From: Burkholderiales bacterium
Lineage (GTDB): Bacteria; Pseudomonadota; Gammaproteobacteria; Burkholderiales; Usitatibacteraceae
Reading direction: 5' to 3'
NCBI GenBank assembly: GCA_019634955.1
Contig: JAHCAK010000003.1
Location: 1-64,000 of the forward strand
DNA length: 64,000 nt
Part shown: positions 18,862 through 31,967 of the stretch, in pieces
How positions within the stretch are numbered: position 1 is the first letter of the stretch
Layout of the letters: every line of letters begins with the position of its first letter
Made by a program: the position numbers and the translations under genes
The notes under the pieces: model-generated
The model's input: the letters and a program-made list of their open reading frames with translations, nothing else
The model's database searches: none
What the model was told of the DNA's origin: nothing

Positions 18862-19440
18862 ATGCCCGTGGCGGAGTCGGAACCAGGCGGCGGCGTCCCG
18901 TCGCCGCGCGAGTCTCTCGGCCGGTGCCATCGCTGCGTGGCCGGGATGCTGGGCCGCCTCGAGGCACTGGTGGCCGAGGTCGCCGCGCCCGGCGCGGGCG
19001 GGGCCGCCGCGTCCGACCGCGCGCGCGAGCTGGTCGCCGAGATCGACGAGGCCCTGAAGGTCCACGTGGACGACGAGGAGGCCGACATCTTCCCCGCCCT
19101 GCTCGCCGCCAGCGACTCGCCGGCGCGCCGCGCGCAGGCCTTCGAGCTGGTGTCCTCGCTGCTCGTGGAGCACCGTGAGCTCGCGGAGCTGTGGCACGCG
19201 CTGCGGATCCCGCTGCTGGCGATCGGCGCCGGCGTGACCGTCGCCTTCCCCGCCGGCACCGCGGCGGACTTCCTCGTGCGCCTGCGCGCCCACCTCGACC
19301 GCGAGGACGTCGAGCTCGCGGAGATGATGGGCGTCCTCGACCCCTCCCGCTCCCGCGAGATCGCCGTCTCCATCGCCCACCGCCACGACGAGGCCTGCCC
19401 GCGCGTGCGCGACTGCCCCCTGAATCGCTCCCGGCCCTGA
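18862..19440 (+). CDS. Hemerythrin-domain protein
   Basis: This 192-aa helical protein has spaced metal-ligand residues of a hemerythrin-like di-iron site: H23, H68 with E72 in HVDDEEADIFPAL, H104, possibly H112, and H144 with nearby acids in RAHLDREDVELAEM. Such proteins bind oxygen, nitric oxide or iron, and some repair or protect Fe-S clusters under nitrosative stress. CGGAGGG at 18852-18858 supports the start. It lies beside a respiratory cluster and behind a weak Crp/Fnr-type box, which would fit an NO-related role; this is inference. Confidence 0.82.
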   Translation: MPVAESEPGGGVPSPRESLGRCHRCVAGMLGRLEALVAEVAAPGAGGAAASDRARELVAEIDEALKVHVDDEEADIFPALLAASDSPARRAQAFELVSSLLVEHRELAELWHALRIPLLAIGAGVTVAFPAGTAADFLVRLRAHLDREDVELAEMMGVLDPSRSREIAVSIAHRHDEACPRVRDCPLNRSRP

Positions 19441-19453: not shown

Positions 19454-20524
19454 TCAGCGCAGCGCCCGGGCGAGCCAGAGCGCGGCGGTGAGGACCACGA
19501 CCGCGCCGCCCTGGTGCGCCGCGCCGAGCCCGACGGGGACCACCATCAGCAGCGTGAGGACCCCGAGGACGACCTGCCCGAGCGTCGCCGCGGCGAGGAC
19601 CCACGCGGCCGTGCGCGCCTCCGGCGGGCACGCGCGGTCGGCGAGGACGCGCCAGGCGAGCAGCCAGGCGAAGGCGAGCACCACGAGCGCGAGCGTGCGG
19701 TGCACGAACTGCACCGTGGCCATGTTGTAGCCGAAGTTGCGCCACCACGGCTCGATGAGGAGGATCTCGGCCGGCACCCACTGCCCGTTCATGAGCGGCC
19801 AGGTGTTGTAGGCGAAGCCGGCGCGGATGCCCGCGACCAGCCCCCCGGTGAGCGCCATGGCGAAGACGAGCGCGGCGAACGCGAGCCCGGCCCGGCGCAG
19901 CCCCGCCGGCGCGCCCGAGGGGGCGGGCCGCAGGACCTGGTGCGCGACCCAGAACATCGCGGCGTGGATGAGGAGCGCCAGGCCCAGGTGCGCGGTGAGG
20001 CGGAACTGGCTCACCTGCGGATCGTCGACCAGCCCGCTCTTCACCATGTACCAGCCCATGGCCCCCTGCAGCCCCCCCAGCACGAAGATGCCGCCGAGCT
20101 TCGCGGCGAGCGGGCCGTCCAGCCGCCCGCGCGCCCAGAACCAGGCGAACGGCACGAAGTAGGCCACGCCGATGAGGCGCCCCAGCAGCCGGTGGAAGTA
20201 CTCCCACCAGAAGATGGACTTGAAGCCCTCGACGTCCATGTCGTGGTTGCGCAGCTTGAACTCGGGGGTGAGCTTGTACTTCTCGAACTGCGCGGCCCAG
20301 TCCGCGTCGTCGAGCGGCGGGATCGTGCCGATGAAGGGCTGCCACTCGACGATGGACAGGCCCGAGTGGGTGAGGCGCGTGACCCCGCCCACGACGACCA
20401 TGGCGAAGACGAGGGCGCAGCAGGCGAGCAGCCACGCGGCGACCGGCCGGCGGCCGGCGGCGGCCGCGGAAGGGGCGGTTCCCGCCCCGGGGGAAGCGAC
20501 GAGGGAGGCGTTCACGGGGGTCAT
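19454..20524 (-). CDS. ctaA: Heme A synthase (COX15/CtaA)
   Basis: This 356-aa membrane protein oxidises the C8 methyl of heme O to make heme A. It has about eight hydrophobic helices and the expected paired heme-ligand histidines: YFHRLLGR (near 109), AHLGLALLIH (near 179-186), FVHRTLAL (near 275) and AAHQGG (near 337). It also has the N-terminal VGGVTRLTHSGLSIVEW motif. It is transcribed away from the oxidase-like cluster and shares the 153-base divergent region holding a Crp/Fnr-type palindrome. Its presence implies that at least one heme-copper enzyme in the cell uses heme A. Confidence 0.93.
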   Translation of the reverse strand: MTPVNASLVASPGAGTAPSAAAAGRRPVAAWLLACCALVFAMVVVGGVTRLTHSGLSIVEWQPFIGTIPPLDDADWAAQFEKYKLTPEFKLRNHDMDVEGFKSIFWWEYFHRLLGRLIGVAYFVPFAWFWARGRLDGPLAAKLGGIFVLGGLQGAMGWYMVKSGLVDDPQVSQFRLTAHLGLALLIHAAMFWVAHQVLRPAPSGAPAGLRRAGLAFAALVFAMALTGGLVAGIRAGFAYNTWPLMNGQWVPAEILLIEPWWRNFGYNMATVQFVHRTLALVVLAFAWLLAWRVLADRACPPEARTAAWVLAAATLGQVVLGVLTLLMVVPVGLGAAHQGGAVVVLTAALWLARALR

Positions 20525-20882: not shown

Positions 20883-21437
20883 ATGACCGCCATCCACTCC
20901 CCCGCCCAGCGCGTCTGGTGGAAGCAGCCCCTGGACCGCGTCGAAGGCACCTGGATCGTCATCGCCTTCGTCTGGTGCCTGGTGATGTTCTTCATGATGC
21001 CGTACTGGCACATCTACGGTAAGCAGAACCTCTCCAACGAGGCCTACCGCACCACGCCCGAGGCCTACGTGGCGAAGACCCAGGCCATGGTGGACAAGTA
21101 CACCGTGCGCACCGCCACCGAGCAGAACATCCCGGTCGTGCACCCGGTGCCCGGCAGCGACGTCTACCTCATCGCCCGGCTCTGGAACTTCTGGCCCATC
21201 CTCGAGCTGGAGGAGGGCCAGACCTACAAGCTGCACATCATGTCGACCGACTGGCTGCACGGCTTCTCGCTGCAGCCCGAGAACATCAACGTGCAGATCC
21301 ACCCGGGCTACGAGCACGTGATGACCATCACGCCCACCAAGGAAGGCACGTACTCGATCATCTGCAACGAGTACTGCGGGATCAACCACCACACGATGGC
21401 GAGCAAGCTCTACGTCGTGAAGCCGAAGAAGAGCTAG
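20883..21437 (+). CDS. Heme-copper enzyme subunit II with CuA site
   Basis: This 184-aa protein has one N-terminal membrane helix (about 24-41) and a periplasmic cupredoxin domain. The CuA ligands are complete: H126 in DWLHGF, then C161-x3-C165-x3-H169-x2-M172 in CNEYCGINHHTM. The short length and single anchor helix match B-family (ba3-like) enzymes rather than aa3 oxidases. It would accept electrons from a soluble cytochrome c or cupredoxin and pass them to subunit I. It lies 12 bases before the subunit I gene. Confidence 0.92.
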   Translation: MTAIHSPAQRVWWKQPLDRVEGTWIVIAFVWCLVMFFMMPYWHIYGKQNLSNEAYRTTPEAYVAKTQAMVDKYTVRTATEQNIPVVHPVPGSDVYLIARLWNFWPILELEEGQTYKLHIMSTDWLHGFSLQPENINVQIHPGYEHVMTITPTKEGTYSIICNEYCGINHHTMASKLYVVKPKKS

Positions 21438-21449
21438 GGGGAGAGCGCC

Positions 21450-23171
21450 ATGGCCGTCAACCGCAATTTCCGCACCTGCCCGTCCACCGGCCTCGTCTAC
21501 CACGAGCCGGCCGAGAAGCTCATCCGCTGGAACGCCGTCGCGGGGGTGGTCTCGCTCCTCGTGGGCGGGGTCCTCGCGCTCCTGGTCACGCTCACGCGCT
21601 GGCCCGCGGTGAAGCTGCTGCCGCCCGACTGGTTCTACCTCGCGCTCACCGCGCACGGGCTGGACATGCTCGTCTTCTGGATCATCTTCTTCGAGATCGC
21701 GGTGCTCTACTTCGCGGCCTCGACGCTGCTCAAGTGCCGGCTGGCCACGCCCAAGGTCGCCTGGGCCGCCTTCTGGCTCATGATCGTCGGCGCGCTCATG
21801 AACAACTTCGCGGTGTTCAAGGGCGATTCCAGCGTCATGTTCACCTCCTACGTGCCGATGGGGGCCCACCCGCTGTTCTACCTCGGGCTCATCCTGTTCG
21901 CCGTCGGCGCGCTCATCGCCGTGTTCGTGTTCTTCGGCACGCTGGTCGTGGGCAAGGCCGAGAAGACCTACAACGGCTCGGTGCCGCTGGTGACCTTCGG
22001 CGCCATCACCGCGGCCATCATCGCCACCTTCACCATCGCCGCGGGCGCGATCATCCTCATCCCGACCTTCCTCTGGTCGGTGGGGCTGGTGAGCCACATC
22101 GACTCCCTCATGTACCGCACGGTGTGGTGGGGCTTCGGGCACTCCTCGCAGCAGATCAACGTCGCCGCCCACGTGTCGGTGTGGTACGCCATCGCCGCCA
22201 TCGTCTTCGGCGCCAAGCCGATGAGCGAGAAGGTGAGCCGCATGGCCTTCGTGCTCTACATCCTGTTCCTGCAGCTCGCGAGCGCGCACCACCTGCTCGC
22301 CGACCCGGGCCTCACCTCCAACTGGAAGATCTTCAACACCAGCTACGCCATGTACCTCGCCGTGCTCGCCTCCATGGTGCACGGGCTCACGGTGCCGGGC
22401 GCGATCGAGGTGGCCCAGCGCGAGAAGGGCTTCAACAAGGGCTTCTTCGAGTGGCTGCGCAAGGCCCCCTGGGGCAACCCCTGCTTCTCCGGGATGTTCA
22501 TCTCCCTCGTGGGCTTCGGCTTCCTGGGCGGCATCTCCGGGGTGATGATGGGCACCGAGCAGCTCAACCTCATCATCCACAACACCATCTACGTGCCGGG
22601 CCACTTCCATGCGACGGTCGTCGTGGGCACCACGCTCGCCTTCATGGCCCTCACCTACTTCCTCATCCCGACCCTCTTCCGCCGCGAGCTCATGTTCCCG
22701 GGGATGGCCAAGTGGCAGCCCTACGTCTACGGCCTGGGGATGTGCGCCTTCTCGGTCTTCATGATGGGCGCGGGGACGCTCGGCGTGCCGCGCCGGCACT
22801 GGGACATGGCCTTCTCGGGCGCGATCCTGCCGCACGAGTTCCCGGGCACGGCCTACCTGATGATGGGCATCATGGCCGTCTCGGGCATCGCCGCGGTCGT
22901 GGGCGGCGCGATGTACCTGCTGATCACCGTGGGCTCGGTGTTCTTCGGCAGGAAGATCGAGACGCCCGGCTTCAAGCGCGTGCCGGTGCGCGAAGGCATG
23001 GCCCCCCCGCCGGCTCCCGTGGCGGTGGCGCCGGCCGGGCACGGCGCGATCGGCCTGGGCGGGTTCGTCGCCCCCGGCACCTTCGTCCTGGCGATGATCT
23101 TCCTCGTGTCGTTCGTCCTCTACTACTTCGTCAACTGGAAGTACCTGTCGACCGTCTGGCCGATGAACTAG
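21450..23171 (+). CDS. B-family heme-copper subunit I lacking the active-site tyrosine
   Basis: This 573-aa polytopic protein has all six histidine ligands: H69 and H387 for the low-spin heme, H385 for the active-site heme, and H231, H280 and H281 for the second metal. The LADPG segment after the HH pair is B-family-like. Oxygen reductases of this type have GHPxVY with the tyrosine four residues after the first metal histidine. Here the sequence is GHSSQQ and position 235 is Gln. Nitric oxide reductases also lack this tyrosine. The enzyme may reduce NO or act unusually on oxygen. Its neighbours CtaB, Sco and a CuA subunit show it is a complete respiratory enzyme. Confidence 0.85.
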   Translation: MAVNRNFRTCPSTGLVYHEPAEKLIRWNAVAGVVSLLVGGVLALLVTLTRWPAVKLLPPDWFYLALTAHGLDMLVFWIIFFEIAVLYFAASTLLKCRLATPKVAWAAFWLMIVGALMNNFAVFKGDSSVMFTSYVPMGAHPLFYLGLILFAVGALIAVFVFFGTLVVGKAEKTYNGSVPLVTFGAITAAIIATFTIAAGAIILIPTFLWSVGLVSHIDSLMYRTVWWGFGHSSQQINVAAHVSVWYAIAAIVFGAKPMSEKVSRMAFVLYILFLQLASAHHLLADPGLTSNWKIFNTSYAMYLAVLASMVHGLTVPGAIEVAQREKGFNKGFFEWLRKAPWGNPCFSGMFISLVGFGFLGGISGVMMGTEQLNLIIHNTIYVPGHFHATVVVGTTLAFMALTYFLIPTLFRRELMFPGMAKWQPYVYGLGMCAFSVFMMGAGTLGVPRRHWDMAFSGAILPHEFPGTAYLMMGIMAVSGIAAVVGGAMYLLITVGSVFFGRKIETPGFKRVPVREGMAPPPAPVAVAPAGHGAIGLGGFVAPGTFVLAMIFLVSFVLYYFVNWKYLSTVWPMN

Positions 23172-23193: not shown

Positions 23194-24093
23194 ATGAACG
23201 AGGTTGTCGCCCCCGCCGGCTCGCTCGCCGGCCACGCAAGGCTCTTCTTCGACCTGTTCAAGCTGCGCATCGGGTTCGCGATCGGGCTCACCGCGCTCGC
23301 GGGGGCCCTCGCGGTCCCCGGGGCGGCGGTCTCCGCCGTGCAGGTGGCGGTGCTGGTGGCGTGCGTCGTCGCGGCCTCCGCCTCGGCCGGCGCGTTCAAC
23401 CAGTACGTGGAGCGCGACATCGACGCGCGCATGGCGCGCACGCGGCGCCGCGCCTTCGTCACCGGGCGGCTCGTCCACGGGCCGTTCTGGCTGGGTGTGA
23501 TCGGCCTCATGCTCGCGCTCGCGGTCTGCGCCGCCGCGGTCGCCGTGAACCCGCTCTCGGCCCTGTTCGTCTTCCTCGGGGCGTTCTTCTACGGGGTCGT
23601 CTACACGGTGATCCTCAAGCGCCGCACCTGGCTCAACATCGTGATCGGCGGGCTCGCCGGCAGCTTCGCCGTTCTCGCGGGCGCCACGGGCGTGGCCCCG
23701 GGCGAGATCGGCCCCGTGGCCCTGTCGCTCGCGTGGGTCCTGTTCCTCTGGACGCCGCCGCACTTCTGGAGCCTCGCCATCGCCTGCCACGACGACTACC
23801 GCGCCGCGGGCGTGCCGATGCTGCCGGTGGTGGTGGGCGACGCCCGCGCCGCGCGCGCCGTGCTCGGCGGCACGGTGGCGCTGGTCGCCTCCTCGTTCCT
23901 GCCGCTCGCCTTCGGGCTGGGCCCCCTTTACGCCGCCGGCGCCGCCGTCGGGGGCTTCCTCTTCGTCCGCGCGGCCTCGCGGCTGGCGGCCGCGCCTTCG
24001 CGCGAGACCGCCCTCGCGAGCTTCCACGCCTCGCTCGCCCAGCTCACGCTCCTCCTCGCCGGGGTGATCGCGGACGCGGCGTGGCGGGGCTAG
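23194..24093 (+). CDS. ctaB: Protoheme IX farnesyltransferase (heme O synthase)
   Basis: This 299-aa UbiA-type prenyltransferase adds a farnesyl chain to heme B to form heme O, the precursor used by CtaA. It has the first acidic motif region NQYVERDIDARMARTRRRA (about 68-86) and a second segment FLWTPPHFWSLAIACHDDYR (about 184-203), within about eight membrane helices. It lies 22 bases after subunit I, so its heme product probably serves that enzyme. The Sco gene begins immediately after. Confidence 0.94.
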   Translation: MNEVVAPAGSLAGHARLFFDLFKLRIGFAIGLTALAGALAVPGAAVSAVQVAVLVACVVAASASAGAFNQYVERDIDARMARTRRRAFVTGRLVHGPFWLGVIGLMLALAVCAAAVAVNPLSALFVFLGAFFYGVVYTVILKRRTWLNIVIGGLAGSFAVLAGATGVAPGEIGPVALSLAWVLFLWTPPHFWSLAIACHDDYRAAGVPMLPVVVGDARAARAVLGGTVALVASSFLPLAFGLGPLYAAGAAVGGFLFVRAASRLAAAPSRETALASFHASLAQLTLLLAGVIADAAWRG

Positions 24094-24098
24094 CCCCC

Positions 24099-24929
24099 GT
24101 GGGCACCGGGTGCCGAACGCGCTGGCTGCCGACGGCGGCCGCGCTCGCCTTCGGGGTCGTCCTCGGTTCCGTGCAGGCGCGAGCGGAAACCGAGGGCGCC
24201 ACCCTGGAGGCGGGCGCGGCGCTCGAGCGCAGCCAGCGCGCCCTCGGTACCGCCGTGGGCGACCACGCCTTCCGCGCGGCCGACGGCAGGCCGCTGCGCC
24301 TCGCGGAGCTGCGCGGCCGCCCCGTCCTGGTGAACTTCGTCTACACCGGCTGCTCGCAGGTCTGCCCCACGACGACGCGCTTCCTCGCCCGCGCCGTGAA
24401 CGAGGCCGACCGCACCCTCGGCCCCGGCCGCTACGCCGTGGCGACCATCGGCTTCAACTACCCTTACGACACGCCCGAGGCGATGCGGGCCTTCGCGAAG
24501 CAGCAGGGCATCGAACGCGCGGACTGGCACTTCCTCAGCCCCGAGGCCGGCACCATCGAGGCCGTGACGCGCGAGCTGGGCTTCAGCTTCGCCGCCTCCG
24601 CGGGCGGCTTCGACCACCTCACCCAGGTGACGATCCTCGACGCGGGCGGGCGCGTGGCCGCCCAGGTCTACGGCGAGGACTTCGCGGTGCCCATGCTGGT
24701 CGACCCCCTGAAGGCGCTGCTCACCGGCGCGCCGCTGCCCGAGATCACCCTCGGCAGCGTGGTCGAGCGCGTGCGGCTGCTCTGCACGGTGTACGACCCG
24801 CGCACCGGGCGCTACCGCCTCGACTACCGCATCGTGCTCGAGATCCTTACCGGCAGCTCCATCGTGATCGCGGTCCTCGCCTACCTCCTGCGGGAATGGG
24901 TGCGCAGCCGGCGCCTGCGCGCGGGCTGA
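24099..24929 (+). CDS. SCO1/SenC copper chaperone with C-terminal membrane anchor
   Basis: This 276-aa thioredoxin-fold protein delivers copper to the CuA site. The copper ligands are C85 and C89 in GCSQVCPTT and H173 in GFDHLTQ. Residues 1-29 look like a signal sequence. A C-terminal hydrophobic helix (about 245-264) followed by basic residues should anchor it in the inner membrane. GTG 24099 is preferred because it begins five bases after the ctaB stop; GTG 24081 in the same frame is an alternative. Its place after subunits II and I supports a CuA assembly role. Confidence 0.88.
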   Translation: MGTGCRTRWLPTAAALAFGVVLGSVQARAETEGATLEAGAALERSQRALGTAVGDHAFRAADGRPLRLAELRGRPVLVNFVYTGCSQVCPTTTRFLARAVNEADRTLGPGRYAVATIGFNYPYDTPEAMRAFAKQQGIERADWHFLSPEAGTIEAVTRELGFSFAASAGGFDHLTQVTILDAGGRVAAQVYGEDFAVPMLVDPLKALLTGAPLPEITLGSVVERVRLLCTVYDPRTGRYRLDYRIVLEILTGSSIVIAVLAYLLREWVRSRRLRAG

Positions 24930-24939
24930 GGGGCGCGCC

Positions 24940-26877
24940 GTGCTTCGCCTCCTCCAGCGGTTCCTGCAGCGCCTGTTCCTGCTGGCCGAGCGCGCCGCCA
25001 ACGCCGTCTTCGGCGAGCGGCTGAACCCCCTCTACCACCTCGGGGCGCTCAGCTACTGGCTCTTCTGGGTCGTGGTCGCCACCGGGCTCTACCTCTACGC
25101 GTTCTTCGACACCAGCGTGACCGGGGCGTACGCCTCCGTCGAGCGGCTCACCCACGACCAGAAGTGGGCCGGCGGCATCATGAGGAGCCTGCACCGCTAT
25201 GCCTCCGACGGAATGGTGCTCACGATGGCGCTGCACCTCCTGCGCCACTTCGCGTTCGACCGCCACCGGGGGTTCCGCTGGTTCTCCTGGGTGAGCGGCG
25301 TGGTCGTGCTGTGGCTCGTGTACGCCTCCGGCATCAACGGCTACATGCTGCCCTGGGACCAGCTCGCGCAGTTCACCGTCACCGCCACGGCCGAGTGGTT
25401 CGACGCGCTGCCCGTGTTCAACGGGCTGCTCATCCGCAACTTCCTCACCGAGGAGAGCGTGAACGACCGCTTCTTCTCGCTGCTGTCCTTCCTGCACATC
25501 GGCCTGCCCCTGGGCGTGCTCGCGCTGCTCTGGATCCACACGCATCGCGTCCCGCAGGCGAAGACGACGCCGCCGCGCCCGCTCATGGCGGCGCTGGGCG
25601 CCGCGCTCGTGGCCCTGTCGGTCGTGAAGCCGGCCCTCAGCCAGGCGCCGGCGAACCTCGCCATGACCGCGACCTCCATCGGGTTCGACTGGTTCTACCT
25701 GCCCACCTACGCCCTGCTCTACGAGTGGTCGCCGGCCTCGCTCTGGGCCCTCACGGGCGGGCTCACGCTGCTCGCGGCGCTCGCGCCGTGGCTGCCGCCC
25801 AAGTTCGGCCGTCGCGCGCGGCGCAGCTTCCACGTGCTGGCCAACCCCGACAACCGCATCGTCGCGATGAAGGAGGACGAGACGCTGCTCGACGGCTGCC
25901 TGCGCGAGGGCCTGCCCATGCCCTTCGACTGCCGCAACGGCGGCTGCGGCGTGTGCAAGTGCACGGTGGAGCACGGCGAGGTGGCGCTGGGCCCCTACCA
26001 GGAAAGCGCGCTCACGGCCGGGGAGCGCCGCGCCGGCCGCGTGCTCGCCTGCGTCGCGAAGCCCCTCTCCGACGTGGAGATCACCTACGAGCCCGCCGGC
26101 GACGCCGCGCGGCCCGTGCAGGTGCACGAGGCGCGCGTGGCCGCCATGGACCGCCTCGCGCCCGACGTGATGCGCGTGCGCCTCGAGCTCCCGGGGGGCG
26201 AGCGGATGGCCTTCTACGCCGGCCAGTACATCAACATCCTGCTGGACGACGGGCAGAAGCGCGCCTTCTCCTTCGCGACGCCCCCGCACGAGGAGGGCCC
26301 CATCGAGCTGCACATCCGCCTCGTGGAGGGCGGGCGCTTCACCACCCACGTCTTCACCGCGATGAAGGTCGGCGACCGCGTCCGCTTCGAGGGGCCGGTG
26401 GGCTCCTTCTTCCTGCGCGAGGAGGGCGACAAGCCCGTGATCTTCGTGGCCGGCGCCACCGGCTTCGCGCCGGTGAAGAGCATGCTCGAGCACGCCTTCC
26501 ACGCCGGGATCTCGCGCCGGATGGTCCTCTACTGGGGCACGCGCACGCTGGCCGACATGTACCTGCGCGAGCTTCCGGAGCGCTGGGCGAAGGAGCACGC
26601 CAACTTCAGCTTCGTGCCCGTGCTCTCCGACCCGCGCCCCGAGGACGGGTGGCAGGGCCGCACGGGGCTCGTGCACGAGGCGATCCTCGCCGACTACCCC
26701 GACCTCGCCGGGCACCGCATCTACGCCTGCGGCTCGGTGGCGATGGTGCAGGCCGCGCAGCCCGCCTTCGCGCGGCAGGGGCTGTCGCCCGACGACTGCT
26801 TCTCCGACGCCTTCAGCCTCGCCCCGCGCATCCACGCCGAGGAAGCCGACCTCGTGCGGCTGGGAGGCCGGCCATGA
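24940..26877 (+). CDS. Cytochrome b / [2Fe-2S] ferredoxin / FAD-NAD(P) reductase fusion
   Basis: This 645-aa three-part fusion starts at GTG. Residues 1-290 are a compact cytochrome b with heme ligands H85, H99, H186 and H200, paired 14 apart, and a D250-W-F-Y-L motif resembling the quinol-site PEWY. Residues 293-388 are a plant-type ferredoxin with C331-x4-C336-x2-C339-x31-C371. Residues 393-640 are a ferredoxin-reductase module with the FAD motif RAFSFA (441-446), the nucleotide motif GATGFAP (505-511) and YACGS (595-599). It could move electrons between NAD(P)H and the quinone pool through the membrane. The direction is unknown. It overlaps the next gene by 4 bases. Confidence 0.88.
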   Translation: MLRLLQRFLQRLFLLAERAANAVFGERLNPLYHLGALSYWLFWVVVATGLYLYAFFDTSVTGAYASVERLTHDQKWAGGIMRSLHRYASDGMVLTMALHLLRHFAFDRHRGFRWFSWVSGVVVLWLVYASGINGYMLPWDQLAQFTVTATAEWFDALPVFNGLLIRNFLTEESVNDRFFSLLSFLHIGLPLGVLALLWIHTHRVPQAKTTPPRPLMAALGAALVALSVVKPALSQAPANLAMTATSIGFDWFYLPTYALLYEWSPASLWALTGGLTLLAALAPWLPPKFGRRARRSFHVLANPDNRIVAMKEDETLLDGCLREGLPMPFDCRNGGCGVCKCTVEHGEVALGPYQESALTAGERRAGRVLACVAKPLSDVEITYEPAGDAARPVQVHEARVAAMDRLAPDVMRVRLELPGGERMAFYAGQYINILLDDGQKRAFSFATPPHEEGPIELHIRLVEGGRFTTHVFTAMKVGDRVRFEGPVGSFFLREEGDKPVIFVAGATGFAPVKSMLEHAFHAGISRRMVLYWGTRTLADMYLRELPERWAKEHANFSFVPVLSDPRPEDGWQGRTGLVHEAILADYPDLAGHRIYACGSVAMVQAAQPAFARQGLSPDDCFSDAFSLAPRIHAEEADLVRLGGRP

Positions 26878-27374
26878 ACCGCCCGCTCGCCTGGGGCCTG
26901 CAGGCCGTCCTCTACGGCGCCTTCGCGGCGTTCCTCGGCTACTTCTCGACCTCGCCCGCCTTCGCGCCGCTGCCCCCGGACCACGCGCTGATCCGCCTGT
27001 CGCTCAATCACGCCGGCCAGCGCAAGTTCCCCTGCCGGACGCGCACCGCCGAGGAACTCGCCAAGCTCGCGCCCAACATGCGCGCCGCCGAGGACTGCCC
27101 GCGCGAGCGCGCCCCGGTGCGGGTGTCGGTGGAGCTCGACGGGCGCAGCGTGGCCGACATCGAGGCGAGGCCCGCGGGCCTTTCGCGCGACGGCGCCTCC
27201 GTCGCCTACCGGCGCATCCCCGTGCCCGCGGGCACGCACCGCCTGCGCGTGGCCCTGGCCGACGACGCGGCGGGCACCTTCGACCGCGTCCGCGAGGAAG
27301 CGGTGAGCCTGCCGCCCGGGCGCGTGCTGGTGATCGATTTCGAGCCCGGCAAGGGCGGGATCGTGCTGCGCTAG
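26874..27374 (+). CDS. Uncharacterised exported or membrane-anchored protein
   Basis: This 166-aa protein has an N-terminal hydrophobic segment (about 7-25), either an uncleaved anchor or a signal. The rest resembles a small beta-rich domain with two cysteines (FPCRTR near 43 and EDCPRE near 66). The ATG overlaps the stop of the cytochrome b/reductase fusion. I do not recognise the family. Its fixed place between the two cytochrome b fusions suggests a periplasmic partner or assembly factor for them. Confidence 0.72.
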   Translation: MNRPLAWGLQAVLYGAFAAFLGYFSTSPAFAPLPPDHALIRLSLNHAGQRKFPCRTRTAEELAKLAPNMRAAEDCPRERAPVRVSVELDGRSVADIEARPAGLSRDGASVAYRRIPVPAGTHRLRVALADDAAGTFDRVREEAVSLPPGRVLVIDFEPGKGGIVLR

Positions 27375-27399: not shown

Positions 27400-28986
27400 A
27401 TGGCCGCCCCCGCGATCGCCCTCCCCGCCCCCGGCCGCGCCGCCGCCGCCGTGGAGCGCGTCGACGCGCTCTTCGACGCCGCCTTCGGACAGGGGCTCAA
27501 TCCCCTGCGCCACCTCGGCGCCCTCGGCTACCACTTCCTGTGGATCTGCTGCGCCTCCGGCATCTGGATCTACGTGGGCTTCGACACCAGCGCCACGGGG
27601 GCCTGGGCCAGCCTCGACGCGATGGATCGCGGCGAGTGGCCGCTGGGCGCCTTCGCCCGCGCGCTGCACCGCTACAGCGCCGACGCCCTGGTGGTCGTGA
27701 CGCTGCTGCACCTCGCGCGCGAGGCCGCCCGGCGGCACTACGCCGCGTTCCGGCGCTTCGCCTGGCTCACGGGCCTCTTCGCCCTCGCGCTCCTGTTCCT
27801 CGCCGGCATCAACGGCTACTGGCTCGCCTGGGACCAGCTCGCGCAGTGGAGCCTCACCGCCACAATCGAGTGGCTCGACGCGCTGCCTGTCTTCGACGGG
27901 TCGCTCGCGCGCAACGTGATCGACGACGGGCAGGTGAACGACCGCTTCTTCTCGCTGCTCATCTTCGTGCACATCGGCCTGCCCCTCGCCCTGCTCGGCG
28001 CGCTCTGGGCGCACGTCCAGCGCGTGAGCCCGGCGCGCACGGCCCCGCCGCGGGCCCTCGGCTGGGGCACGGCCGCCATGCTCGCGGCGCTGTGCCTCGC
28101 CAAGCCCGTGGCGCTCATGCCCGCGGCGGATCTCGCCTTCCTCCCGGCGCGCATCCCCCTCGACTGGTTCTACCTGTTCCCCCACGTCGCCATGGCATCG
28201 CTGGGGCCGGCCGGCCTCTGGGCCGCAACGGCGGCGTTCTTCGCCGCCCTCGCGGCGCTTCCCTGGGCCACCCGCGTGCCGCGCGCGCCGGCCGCCCGCG
28301 TGAACCTCGCCAACTGCAACGGCTGCGCGCGCTGCTTCGCCGACTGCCCCTACGACGCCGTGGTGATGGTCGCGCGCACCGACGGCCGGCACCACCCGCG
28401 GCAGGCGCAAGTCGACCCGATGCTGTGCGCCGGCTGCGGCATCTGCACCGGCGCCTGCCCCTCCTCGACGCCCTTCCGCCGCGGCGAGACGCTCGCCACC
28501 GGTATCGACATGCCGCAGGCCGCCATCGGCGAGCTGCGCGCGCGGCTCGAGTCGCGCACCGCCGCGCTCACGGGCACTCCCCGCGTGGTGGTGCTGGGCT
28601 GCCGCTGGTCCGCGCCGGCGGCCACCCTCGAGGATGCCTCGACCGCCTGCGTGGAATTCCTCTGCGCAGCGATGGTGCCGCCCTCGTTCGTGGAGTACGC
28701 CCTGCGCGCCGGCGCCGACGGCGTGCTCCTCGCCGGCTGCCGCGAAGGCGATTGCGAATTCCGCACCGGCACCGCCCTCGCGGCCGAGCGGCTCGCCGGC
28801 GCGCGCAAGCCCGCCCTTCGGCCAAGCGTGCCGCGCGAGCGCGTGCGCCAGGTCCACGCCGGCATCACCGACGCCGCCGCGCTTCGCGCCGCGCTCGACG
28901 ACTTCCGCGCCGCGCTCGCCCGCCTGGGCCCGCGCGCGGCCGACCATCCCCATCCGCCCAAACGCCAGGAGTCGCGCCATGGCTAG
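27400..28986 (+). CDS. Cytochrome b / 2[4Fe-4S] / MvhD-like fusion
   Basis: This 528-aa fusion starts with the same cytochrome b type: ligands H90, H104, H191 and H205, and D255-W-F-Y-L. Two [4Fe-4S] motifs follow, C306-x2-C309-x2-C312-x3-C316 and C343-x2-C346-x2-C349-x3-C353. Residues 395-500 match the MvhD iron-sulfur subunit family, with C401, C417, C422, C447 and C452 in GCREGDCEFRTG. MvhD proteins link hydrogenases or dehydrogenases to heterodisulfide reductases. Fusion to cytochrome b suggests exchange of electrons between a low-potential partner and the quinone pool. It is a domain-shuffled paralogue of the fusion at 24940. Confidence 0.87.
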   Translation: MAAPAIALPAPGRAAAAVERVDALFDAAFGQGLNPLRHLGALGYHFLWICCASGIWIYVGFDTSATGAWASLDAMDRGEWPLGAFARALHRYSADALVVVTLLHLAREAARRHYAAFRRFAWLTGLFALALLFLAGINGYWLAWDQLAQWSLTATIEWLDALPVFDGSLARNVIDDGQVNDRFFSLLIFVHIGLPLALLGALWAHVQRVSPARTAPPRALGWGTAAMLAALCLAKPVALMPAADLAFLPARIPLDWFYLFPHVAMASLGPAGLWAATAAFFAALAALPWATRVPRAPAARVNLANCNGCARCFADCPYDAVVMVARTDGRHHPRQAQVDPMLCAGCGICTGACPSSTPFRRGETLATGIDMPQAAIGELRARLESRTAALTGTPRVVVLGCRWSAPAATLEDASTACVEFLCAAMVPPSFVEYALRAGADGVLLAGCREGDCEFRTGTALAAERLAGARKPALRPSVPRERVRQVHAGITDAAALRAALDDFRAALARLGPRAADHPHPPKRQESRHG

Positions 28987-30397
28987 CCTGCAAACCGCCA
29001 ACCCGTCCGCCGCCCTGCCCGCCGCCCGCCGCGCGGCCGGCACCTCCTTCATCCTGCCGGTCGAGCGCGACGCCTCGGCGCGCCTCGCCACCGGCTGGCT
29101 CGTCCTCGGCGTGGCCGCGCTCGTGGGCTCGGGGCTCTTCTCGGTGCTGCTCGTGCTCGCGCGCACCCCCGGGCTCAAGGAGCTCTTCCCGGTCGCGAAC
29201 TTCTTCCAGGTGGCGCTGGTGGCGCACGTGGACCTCTCCGTGCTGGTGTGGTTCCTCGCCTTCGCCGGCGTGCTGTGGAGCCTCGCCTGCGACGGCCGCG
29301 CCCTCGTGCTGGGATGGGCCTCGCTCGCCCTCACGGCCGCGGGCACGCTCGCCCTGTGCGTGGCCCCGCTGCTTCGCGACGCCGTGCCGGTGCTCGCCAA
29401 CTACATTCCCGTGATCGACAACACGGCGTTCCTCGCCGGGCTCGGCGCCATCGGCGCGGGCGTGGCCCTCGCGGTGGCCCGCACGTTCGTGGCCACCCGG
29501 TCGTCGGGCGGCGTGCTCGACGGGGCCTCGGCGCTGCGCTGGGGCATCGTCGGCTCGGCGGTGGCCACGGCCGTGGCGCTCGCCGCCTTCGGGTGGTCGT
29601 GGCTGGAGATCTCGCCGCACCTCGAGCGCAAGACCTACTTCGAGCTGCTCTTCTGGGGCGGCGGCCACGTCCTGCAGTTCACCTGGACGCTCCTCATGCT
29701 GGCCGGCTGGCTGTGGCTCGCCTCGGCCCTCGGGCTCGCCGTGCCGCTCTCCCCGCGCGTGGCGCTCCTCGTCTTCACGATCGCGCTCGCCTCCGTGTTC
29801 GTGACCCCGGCGATCTACCTGTCCCACCCCGTGGCCTCGGTCGAGCACCACAAGCTGCAGACCTGGCTCATGCGCTTCGGCGGCGGGCTCGCCATCCCGC
29901 CCATCCTGCTCGCGCTGCTGTGGTCGATGCGGGGCCTGCGCGCGCTCGACGCGGAGCGCCGCCCGATCTTCGGCGCGCTGGCCGCCTCCATCGGCCTCTT
30001 CGCCGCCGGCGGCCTCATCGGCTTCGCCATCAACGGGCCCAACGTGCGCATCCCGGCTCACTACCACGGCTGCATCGTCGGCGTGACGCTCGCCTTCATG
30101 GGGCTCACCTACCACCTGCTGCCGAGGCTCGGCTTCGCCACGCCGCGCTCGCGGCTGGCGGCATGGCAGCCCTGGCTCTACGGCGGCGGCCAGCTCATGC
30201 ACATCGTGGGCCTGGTGTGGTCGGGCGGCTACGGCGTCGAGCGCAAGGTGGCCGGCGCGGCGCAGGTGCTGCGCACGCCGCAGGAAGTGGCCGGCATGGG
30301 GCTCATGGGCCTGGGCGGCCTCGTCGCCATCCTCGGCGGCCTCGCTTTCGTGGTGGTGGTGATCGGGGCCATGCGCCGGCAGGAGGCCCGCGGGTGA
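28979..30397 (+). CDS. Second heme-copper subunit I-like protein, also without tyrosine
   Basis: This 472-aa polytopic protein carries all six histidines: H83, H230 in FWGGGH, H290-H291, and H361 and H363 in PAHYHG. The residue four after H230 is F234, not Tyr. I also see no tyrosine at the helix VII position used by cbb3 oxidases. Both subunit I proteins here have a tyrosine ten residues before the HH pair (Y280 here, Y270 in the other). There is no CuA partner; it is flanked by the cytochrome b/MvhD fusion (8-base overlap) and a polytopic protein (GTGA overlap). A quinol- or ferredoxin-linked NO reductase is possible. Confidence 0.82.
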   Translation: MASLQTANPSAALPAARRAAGTSFILPVERDASARLATGWLVLGVAALVGSGLFSVLLVLARTPGLKELFPVANFFQVALVAHVDLSVLVWFLAFAGVLWSLACDGRALVLGWASLALTAAGTLALCVAPLLRDAVPVLANYIPVIDNTAFLAGLGAIGAGVALAVARTFVATRSSGGVLDGASALRWGIVGSAVATAVALAAFGWSWLEISPHLERKTYFELLFWGGGHVLQFTWTLLMLAGWLWLASALGLAVPLSPRVALLVFTIALASVFVTPAIYLSHPVASVEHHKLQTWLMRFGGGLAIPPILLALLWSMRGLRALDAERRPIFGALAASIGLFAAGGLIGFAINGPNVRIPAHYHGCIVGVTLAFMGLTYHLLPRLGFATPRSRLAAWQPWLYGGGQLMHIVGLVWSGGYGVERKVAGAAQVLRTPQEVAGMGLMGLGGLVAILGGLAFVVVVIGAMRRQEARG

Positions 30398-31203
30398 GGC
30401 AGCCGGACCGTCACGCGCGGTCGCTTGCCGCCACCGCGGCGGCCTGCGCCGCCCTCGTGCTCGTGGTCGTGGCCTCCAGCGCGTGGCTGCGGCTCGCCGC
30501 GCCCGCCTGCCCGCCCGGCGGCTGCGAGGGATTCGCCCTGGCCGACGCCGTGCGGCTCGCGCACCGGATCGCCGCGATGGGCGTCACCGTGGCCGCCCTC
30601 GTCCTCGTCGCGCTGGCGTGGAAGCCGCCGGCGCGGTGGGGGATGCGCGCCGCCGCGGTGCTCGTGCTGCTGCTGGTGGCCGCCCTGGCGATCGTGGGGC
30701 GCCGCTCCGCCGGCGCGGCGCCACCGGCCGTCCTGCTCGCCAACCTGCTGGGTGGGCTCACCCTGCTGGGCCTGGCCGTCGGCCTCGCGACGGCCGCCCG
30801 CGCCGGGCCCGGGCCCGTGCGGGGCGCCCCCCTCGTGGCCGCGACGATCCTCGCCGCCGCGATCGCCACCGGCGCCTTGCTCGCCACCGCCGCACCGGCC
30901 GATCCGGCGGCGCTCGCCCTCGCGCACCGCGGCCTGGCGTGGGCCGCGCTCGTCGCCTGGGGGCTGCTCGCCCTCGGCACCGGGCGGCCGCGCGGGGAGC
31001 GCCTGGCGGCAGGCACGGTCGCGGCCCTGCTCGCCACCGAGGCGGTGCTCGCCATCGCCGCGCCGGCGAGCCCGTCCCTGCGCTGGCTGCACAACCTCCT
31101 CTCGACGGCGGCGATGTGCGCGGCCATCGCCTGCGCAGCCGGCTGCGGGGCGCCGTCGCCACGGGCCGCGGACGGGCCGCGCGAGGCGCTCGCGAGGCCC
31201 TGA
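30394..31203 (+). CDS. Polytopic membrane protein, weakly CtaA/COX15-like
   Basis: This 269-aa protein starts with GTG overlapping the previous stop (GTGA). It has about eight hydrophobic segments. WLRLAAPACPPGGC followed by LAHRIAAMG is reminiscent of the VRLxGxGLxCPDWPxC and histidine region of heme A synthases. A late histidine pair, LAHRGLAW and RWLHNLLS, could also bind heme. The match is too weak to call an enzyme. It may handle heme for, or be a subunit of, the second heme-copper protein. Confidence 0.6.
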   Translation: MRQPDRHARSLAATAAACAALVLVVVASSAWLRLAAPACPPGGCEGFALADAVRLAHRIAAMGVTVAALVLVALAWKPPARWGMRAAAVLVLLLVAALAIVGRRSAGAAPPAVLLANLLGGLTLLGLAVGLATAARAGPGPVRGAPLVAATILAAAIATGALLATAAPADPAALALAHRGLAWAALVAWGLLALGTGRPRGERLAAGTVAALLATEAVLAIAAPASPSLRWLHNLLSTAAMCAAIACAAGCGAPSPRAADGPREALARP

Positions 31204-31220: not shown

Positions 31221-31967
31221 ATGGGCGAAACATCCGCCCAAGACCCCGCCGTCATGCAACCCGGAGAAGCTCGGCCCCGCGGACCGGACATCCCGGTCGA
31301 GCAGTTCCTCGTCAACCTTCCGCTCTTCAGCGACCTCACGCCCGAGGAGATCAAGCGCATCGCCGCCGGCACGCGCCGCATCTACGCGACCAAGGGCGAT
31401 GCGCTCTTCTCGCGGGGCGAGCGCTGCGAGGGCTTCCACGTGGTGCTGTACGGGCAGGTGAAGCTCTTCGTCACCTCGCCCCAGGGCTCCGAGAAGGTGA
31501 TCGAGATCATGGGCCCCGGCATCTCCTTCGGCGAGGCGATCCTCTTCATGGACATCCCCTACGTCGTGTCGGCGCAGGCCCTCAAGGACTCGCTCCTGCT
31601 GCACGTGTCGAAGGCCGTCGTCTTCGAGGAGATCGAGCGCGACCCGCGCCTCGCCCGGCGCCTGCTCGCCGGGATGTCGCGCAAGCTCCACCAGCTCATC
31701 CGCGACGTCGAGGCCTACTCCCTGCGCTCGGGGCTGGAGCGCGTGATCGGCTACCTGCTTCGCGACGACGCGCTCGACCAGGGCGCGGCCAACGCGGCGA
31801 GCGTGACGCTGCCGGCCAACAAGATGATCGTGGCCTCGCGGCTGAACCTCACGCCCGAGTACTTCTCGCGCATCCTGCACGAGCTGGCCGACGCCGGCCT
31901 CATCGTCATGGAAGGCCGGTCGGTGACGGTGCCCGACGTCGAGCGGCTTCGCACCTACACCGGCTGA
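31221..31967 (+). CDS. Crp/Fnr-family regulator, DNR-like
   Basis: This 248-aa regulator has a cyclic-nucleotide-type sensory domain (about 30-150) and a winged helix-turn-helix (about 175-240, RLNLTPEYFSRILHELADAG). No N-terminal cysteine cluster is present, so it is not an oxygen-sensing FNR. The segments EAILFMDIPYVVSAQAL and MSRKLHQLIRDVEAYSL strongly resemble DNR proteins, which sense NO through heme. ATG 31221 is used, with GGGG seven bases before; ATG 31254 is an alternative. It is the probable reader of the palindrome at 20579. Confidence 0.85.
   Translation: MGETSAQDPAVMQPGEARPRGPDIPVEQFLVNLPLFSDLTPEEIKRIAAGTRRIYATKGDALFSRGERCEGFHVVLYGQVKLFVTSPQGSEKVIEIMGPGISFGEAILFMDIPYVVSAQALKDSLLLHVSKAVVFEEIERDPRLARRLLAGMSRKLHQLIRDVEAYSLRSGLERVIGYLLRDDALDQGAANAASVTLPANKMIVASRLNLTPEYFSRILHELADAGLIVMEGRSVTVPDVERLRTYTG

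Follow-up and report, generated by a model that had tools for sequence, protein, structure and literature searches.

HCO2, the 472-amino-acid product of an open reading frame in the window (i.e., the whole 64,000-nucleotide stretch analysed), has the fold and the haem-ligating histidines of a haem-copper subunit I and lacks the His-His pair of the CuB site. It belongs to a family of its own, whose loss of the CuB ligands is strongly supported by the aligned sequences, and its gene has a conserved place in the cluster of an eNOR. It is probably not an oxidase.

Results

HCO2 matches the Pfam family COX1 (PF00115) at 2.5e-15, and its predicted structure (AlphaFold; pLDDT 87.5, pTM 0.89) can be superposed on the haem-copper subunit I fold from residue 30 to residue 472 (Z about 28-31). 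The Pfam match, the twelve-helix subunit I fold and the haem-ligating histidines all place it within the haem-copper superfamily fold. A phmmer search of solved structures with the single sequence returned nothing useful. Comparison of the gene with those of the two closest relatives shows purifying selection, with dN 0.085-0.10 and dS 0.38-0.51.

Its active site was compared with 20 canonical subunits I of the A-type, family B, cbb3 and eNOR groups, including the source genome's CtaD, its two CcoN types and the cluster's own eNOR (HCO1), and with a broad set of 79 non-redundant members of the HCO2 family, sharing less than 70% mutual identity. In all 20 canonical proteins the helix VI histidine is followed, at a distance of 49-50 residues, by the CuB His-His pair; none of the 79 family members has the pair there. 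HCO2 has I279-Y280 at this position, where Ile and Tyr are usual across the family, and an L-INS-i alignment independently gives the same placement. The label heme-copper, given to the protein in the preliminary description, is therefore misleading as regards the copper. The EHH at 289-291 was considered as the missing pair and rejected, for it lies 59-61 residues past H230 instead of the universal 49-50 and its residues vary freely in the family; hhalign did put E289/H290 opposite the CuB pair, by way of a gapped stretch, and even so no conserved His pair stands there.

The haem ligands, on the other hand, are kept. H230, Q233, H361 and H363 are invariant in the broad set, M298 is kept in 78 of its 79 members and H83 in 77, and W226 and W244 are nearly invariant. 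H83, H361 and H363 align with haem ligands of haem-copper subunits I, the alignment assigning H83 and H363 to the low-spin haem and H361 to the second haem. Because the haem histidines are kept and the CuB pair is missing, HCO2 should, to judge from its sequence, hold two haems and no CuB, although a metal held by unexpected ligands is possible. One family member (L173 in Table 1) has its low-spin haem motif changed from HVD to YFD, which could be further decay or another function.

The residues that mark known catalytic classes are absent as well. H230 is followed by V-L-Q-F in the translation, as first described, so that Phe (F234) takes the +4 position; every one of 80 aligned close family members has this Phe, as do 67/79 of the broad set. 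HCO2 thus has neither the Tyr of families A and B at +4, nor the Glu of cNOR and qNOR, nor the Asn, Asp and Asn that mark the active sites of sNOR, gNOR and CuANOR, respectively (PMC8756737 Table A4), nor the Gln reported as diagnostic of eNOR (PMC8756737), which HCO1 does have. The helix VI histidine and CuB-binding His-His pair of O2 reductases are not found together in it. The absence of a Tyr at the helix VII position of cbb3 enzymes was correctly read too: aligned with the source genome's own CcoN, whose Tyr lies six residues before HH, HCO2 has V273.

In the more careful of two trees the HCO2 family forms a single clade (support 100/100), apart from eNOR, family B, A-type and cbb3, and a branch with 100/99 support sets it on the eNOR side of the remaining groups, eNOR being its nearest relative among those sampled. 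The quick tree had more members, with a qNOR whose branch was very long. Both place HCO2 outside the CcoN clade, in agreement with the earlier view that it is not a cbb3 oxidase, and each of the source genome's two CcoN-type genes has its own CcoO-like partner.

Each of the known relatives shares something with HCO2. The subunit I of eNOR (ba3-a1 type) shares its fold, its low-spin and high-spin haem histidines and its cluster, but keeps the CuB pair and Gln at +4, and HCO2 is about 100 aa shorter and has no CuA gene of its own at the source locus. The family B enzyme of Thermus thermophilus (ba3) has the highest identity to HCO2 among solved structures (20-21%) and matches its fold over the full length, yet HCO2 lacks the CuB pair and the +4 Tyr and stands in a separate clade. 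CcoN of cbb3 also has the common fold and no +4 Tyr, whereas HCO2 lacks the helix VII Tyr, the CuB pair and CcoO/CcoP, besides standing in another clade; and cNOR and qNOR share the fold, whereas HCO2 lacks their +4 Glu and the His pair for FeB. The assembly factors CtaA, CtaB, SCO, SURF1 and CtaG have gene neighbourhoods in common with HCO2 but are of other families, whereas HCO2 is folded like subunit I, their client.

The gene lies in an eNOR cluster (Table 1), its start overlapping the cytochrome b/Fe-S/MvhD gene and its end the CtaA-like gene by a few bases each, as the preliminary description had it. The same description found no CuA or cytochrome c subunit: this holds for the genes adjacent to HCO2, but a CuA subunit, belonging to the eNOR, is encoded in the same cluster. 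HCO1 is likely the first of the two tyrosine-less enzymes counted there. The two cytochrome b fusions suggest that a cluster of membrane enzymes receives electrons from the cytoplasm. The 166-aa protein, conserved beside HCO2 in eNOR clusters, has invariant Cys54 and Cys75; a Cox11/CtaG-like identity was considered for it and set aside, the beta-sandwich and single TM helix being confidently predicted but giving no clear match. A hypothetical protein of similar size has the same position in the Defluviimonas eNOR cluster (L117), which is also closed by a hemerythrin; in the window a hemerythrin-domain protein is encoded beside ctaA. HCO2 is followed in the window by a Crp-type regulator, a PAS kinase and a response regulator. 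Scanning the cluster for promoters and terminators gave nothing informative. The source genome also encodes NirS, a qNOR, an aa3 oxidase and two CcoN types.

Table 1. Genes of the eNOR cluster in the window, and HCO2 homologues at other loci.
Feature	Sequence	Positions	Strand	Remarks
Hemerythrin-domain protein	Window	18862-19440		Weak match to Fe-S repair (RIC) family
CtaA (haem A synthase)	Window	19454-20524	-	Divergent from eNOR genes
CuA subunit II of eNOR	Window	20883-21437	+	C-x3-C-x3-H-x2-M motif intact
HCO1, eNOR-type subunit I	Window	21450-23171	+	Gln at +4, HH at +49
CtaB (haem O synthase, UbiA family)	Window	23194-24093	+	
SCO-family protein	Window	24114-24929	+	
Cytochrome b fused to 2Fe-2S ferredoxin and FAD/NAD reductase	Window	24940-26877	+	
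166-aa protein, one TM helix and beta-sandwich	Window	26874-27374	+	No Pfam/NCBIfam match
Cytochrome b (N-terminal, b6-like) with two 4Fe-4S motifs and MvhD/FlpD domain	Window	27400-28986	+	Pfam, synteny
HCO2, CuB-less haem-copper-fold subunit I homologue	Window	28979-30397	+	472 aa
CtaA-like membrane protein	Window	30394-31203	+	Weak COX15-CtaA match, second half of model, below cut-off
Crp/Fnr-family regulator	Window	31221-31967	+	Closest to FtrB (below cut-off)
HCO2 family member	L173	1592-3007	-	HVD changed to YFD
TPR-fused HCO2 homologue	L176	5313-6971	-	
TPR-fused HCO2 homologue	L179	8121-10253	+	
TPR-fused HCO2 homologue	L210	7448-9367	-	

Far from being partnerless, as it had been called, HCO2 is a conserved member of an eNOR cluster at most of the 80 related loci that were compared by tblastn; because the same gene set recurs over these loci in species after species, it has to be regarded as a regular component. 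The order eNOR-CtaB-SCO-cytochrome b fusion-166-aa protein-HCO2 is conserved in beta- and gammaproteobacterial clusters, with two order variants of the cytochrome b fusions, and the CtaA-like gene stands at the 3′ side of HCO2 only in the closest relatives. Among 274 genomes of the class HCO2 is present in 30 and eNOR in 24, and the two occur together in 19 (Fisher 2e-17, with no correction for phylogeny). CtaA is found in 27 of the 30 HCO2 genomes versus 149 of the 244 others. However, eNOR is missing from 11 of the 30 genomes with HCO2, eight of these 11 being at least 95% complete, which points to a wider role of the family; five of the 24 eNOR genomes have no HCO2, and the eNOR clusters of Defluviimonas and Thermus do not include it.

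In the family at large, elsewhere in Pseudomonadota, a haem A synthase gene lies within 3 kb of HCO2 in 36 of 96 loci, mostly as the next gene, and SCO, CuA and CtaB genes lie within this distance in 20, 16 and 10 loci, respectively, whilst about half of the loci have none of the four. Three loci (L205, L228 and L255) have the order CuA-HCO2-CtaA with no eNOR, and L171 has HCO2-CuA; the CuA motifs are intact where checked. A branch with a C-terminal TPR domain adjoins genes of ResB, CcsA-type proteins and multihaem cytochromes c. No relative of HCO2 was found in the plasmid collection searched.

Discussion

The reading that we favour, tentatively and with a little less than even confidence, is that HCO2 is a haem-only accessory of true haem-copper enzymes, dealing with their electrons or their haem. 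A low-spin haem would be bound by H83 and H363 and a second haem by H361, and H230, once the helix VI ligand of CuB, could cap the latter. Because the His pair completing CuB is missing, such a protein should be unable to use the known binuclear mechanism on either O2 or NO. It may rather pass electrons, or hold and hand over haem, in the maturation or operation of haem A/O enzymes, and in the source cluster it would serve the eNOR. The cytochrome b/Fe-S fusion encoded just upstream would be its probable electron source; donation by this cytochrome b/MvhD protein, already proposed in the preliminary description, is possible and fits the synteny. A haem-bearing subunit I without CuB is physically plausible, since surf1 mutants form an aa3 oxidase that contains haem a3 yet has no CuB (PMC9145763).

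What argues for the accessory role is the gene neighbourhood, whose shared theme is how haem and copper enzymes are built and wired. Nevertheless, the genes of real haem A enzymes cluster with ctaA, ctaB and sco too, so HCO2 could be a client of these factors; the CuA gene directly adjoins it in L205, L228, L255 and L171, as in a two-subunit enzyme; and about half of the family loci, where these genes are absent within 3 kb, do not speak for such a role. The genomes that have only one of HCO2 and eNOR argue, moreover, against a factor strictly dedicated to eNOR. In a wider form, which we consider rather unlikely, a family spread over the Pseudomonadota would have turned a catalytic subunit into a biogenesis factor devoid of copper. 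It would work with haem A synthase and, in the TPR branch, with the CcsA/ResB cytochrome c machinery, and hand electrons or haem to new enzymes.

The main rival to the accessory reading makes HCO2 a terminal enzyme in its own right, whose new active site might, for example, act on NO or O2 with one haem and the residues H230, Q233 and Y280. Its electrons would come from CuA in some lineages and from the cytochrome b fusion in the source cluster, and the adjoining ctaA, ctaB and sco would serve its own maturation. In its favour are the near-invariance of H230, Q233, W226, W244 and M298, and the CuA-linked loci, of which L255, L228 and L205 could encode a possible two-subunit CuB-less enzyme; and as the source genome encodes NirS, NO would be produced in the cell. 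Even so we hold it unlikely, because the protein has neither the CuB pair, nor the Tyr, nor any of Glu, Asn, Asp or Gln at +4, most loci have no adjoining subunit II, and the source genome already has a qNOR, an eNOR, an aa3 and a cbb3 enzyme.

HCO2 could also be an electron-transfer subunit of the eNOR, that is, a dihaem membrane cytochrome through which the pair of CuA subunit and eNOR would be connected either with the quinol pool or with the cytochrome b/Fe-S fusion, and the conserved gene order, the overlapping genes and the position of eNOR as its nearest relative in the tree would all suit such a subunit. This is nonetheless doubtful, as HCO2 occurs without eNOR in the 11 genomes mentioned and eNOR without HCO2 in five, and as the Defluviimonas and Thermus clusters do not include it. 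A haem-based sensor of NO, O2 or redox state, whose second haem would bind the gas and signal to the adjoining regulators, is improbable: regulatory genes do follow HCO2 in the window, and at some loci two-component or GGDEF genes occur close to the TPR-fused relatives, but most family members have no output domain and the regulators are kept beside HCO2 mainly in its closest relatives.

Alphaproteobacterial ba3-a1/eNOR enzymes without the Tyr have already been described (PMC6431628; PMC8879329), and the eNORs examined in this work keep the CuB pair. A literature search for CuB-less homologues found none within a coverage that left out most subscription papers, including a PNAS survey of NOR diversity (2024), and the family has possibly been described elsewhere.

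By definition, haem-copper enzymes combine a haem with another metal. A large natural family in which the haem ligands persist and those of CuB are gone would show what role the scaffold can have without the second metal, and genome surveys probably count its members as oxidases. If the helper role is true, it touches the open question of how haem A is transferred from CtaA to subunit I. HCO2 also adds a component to the eNOR clusters of proteobacteria, a little-studied source of N2O.
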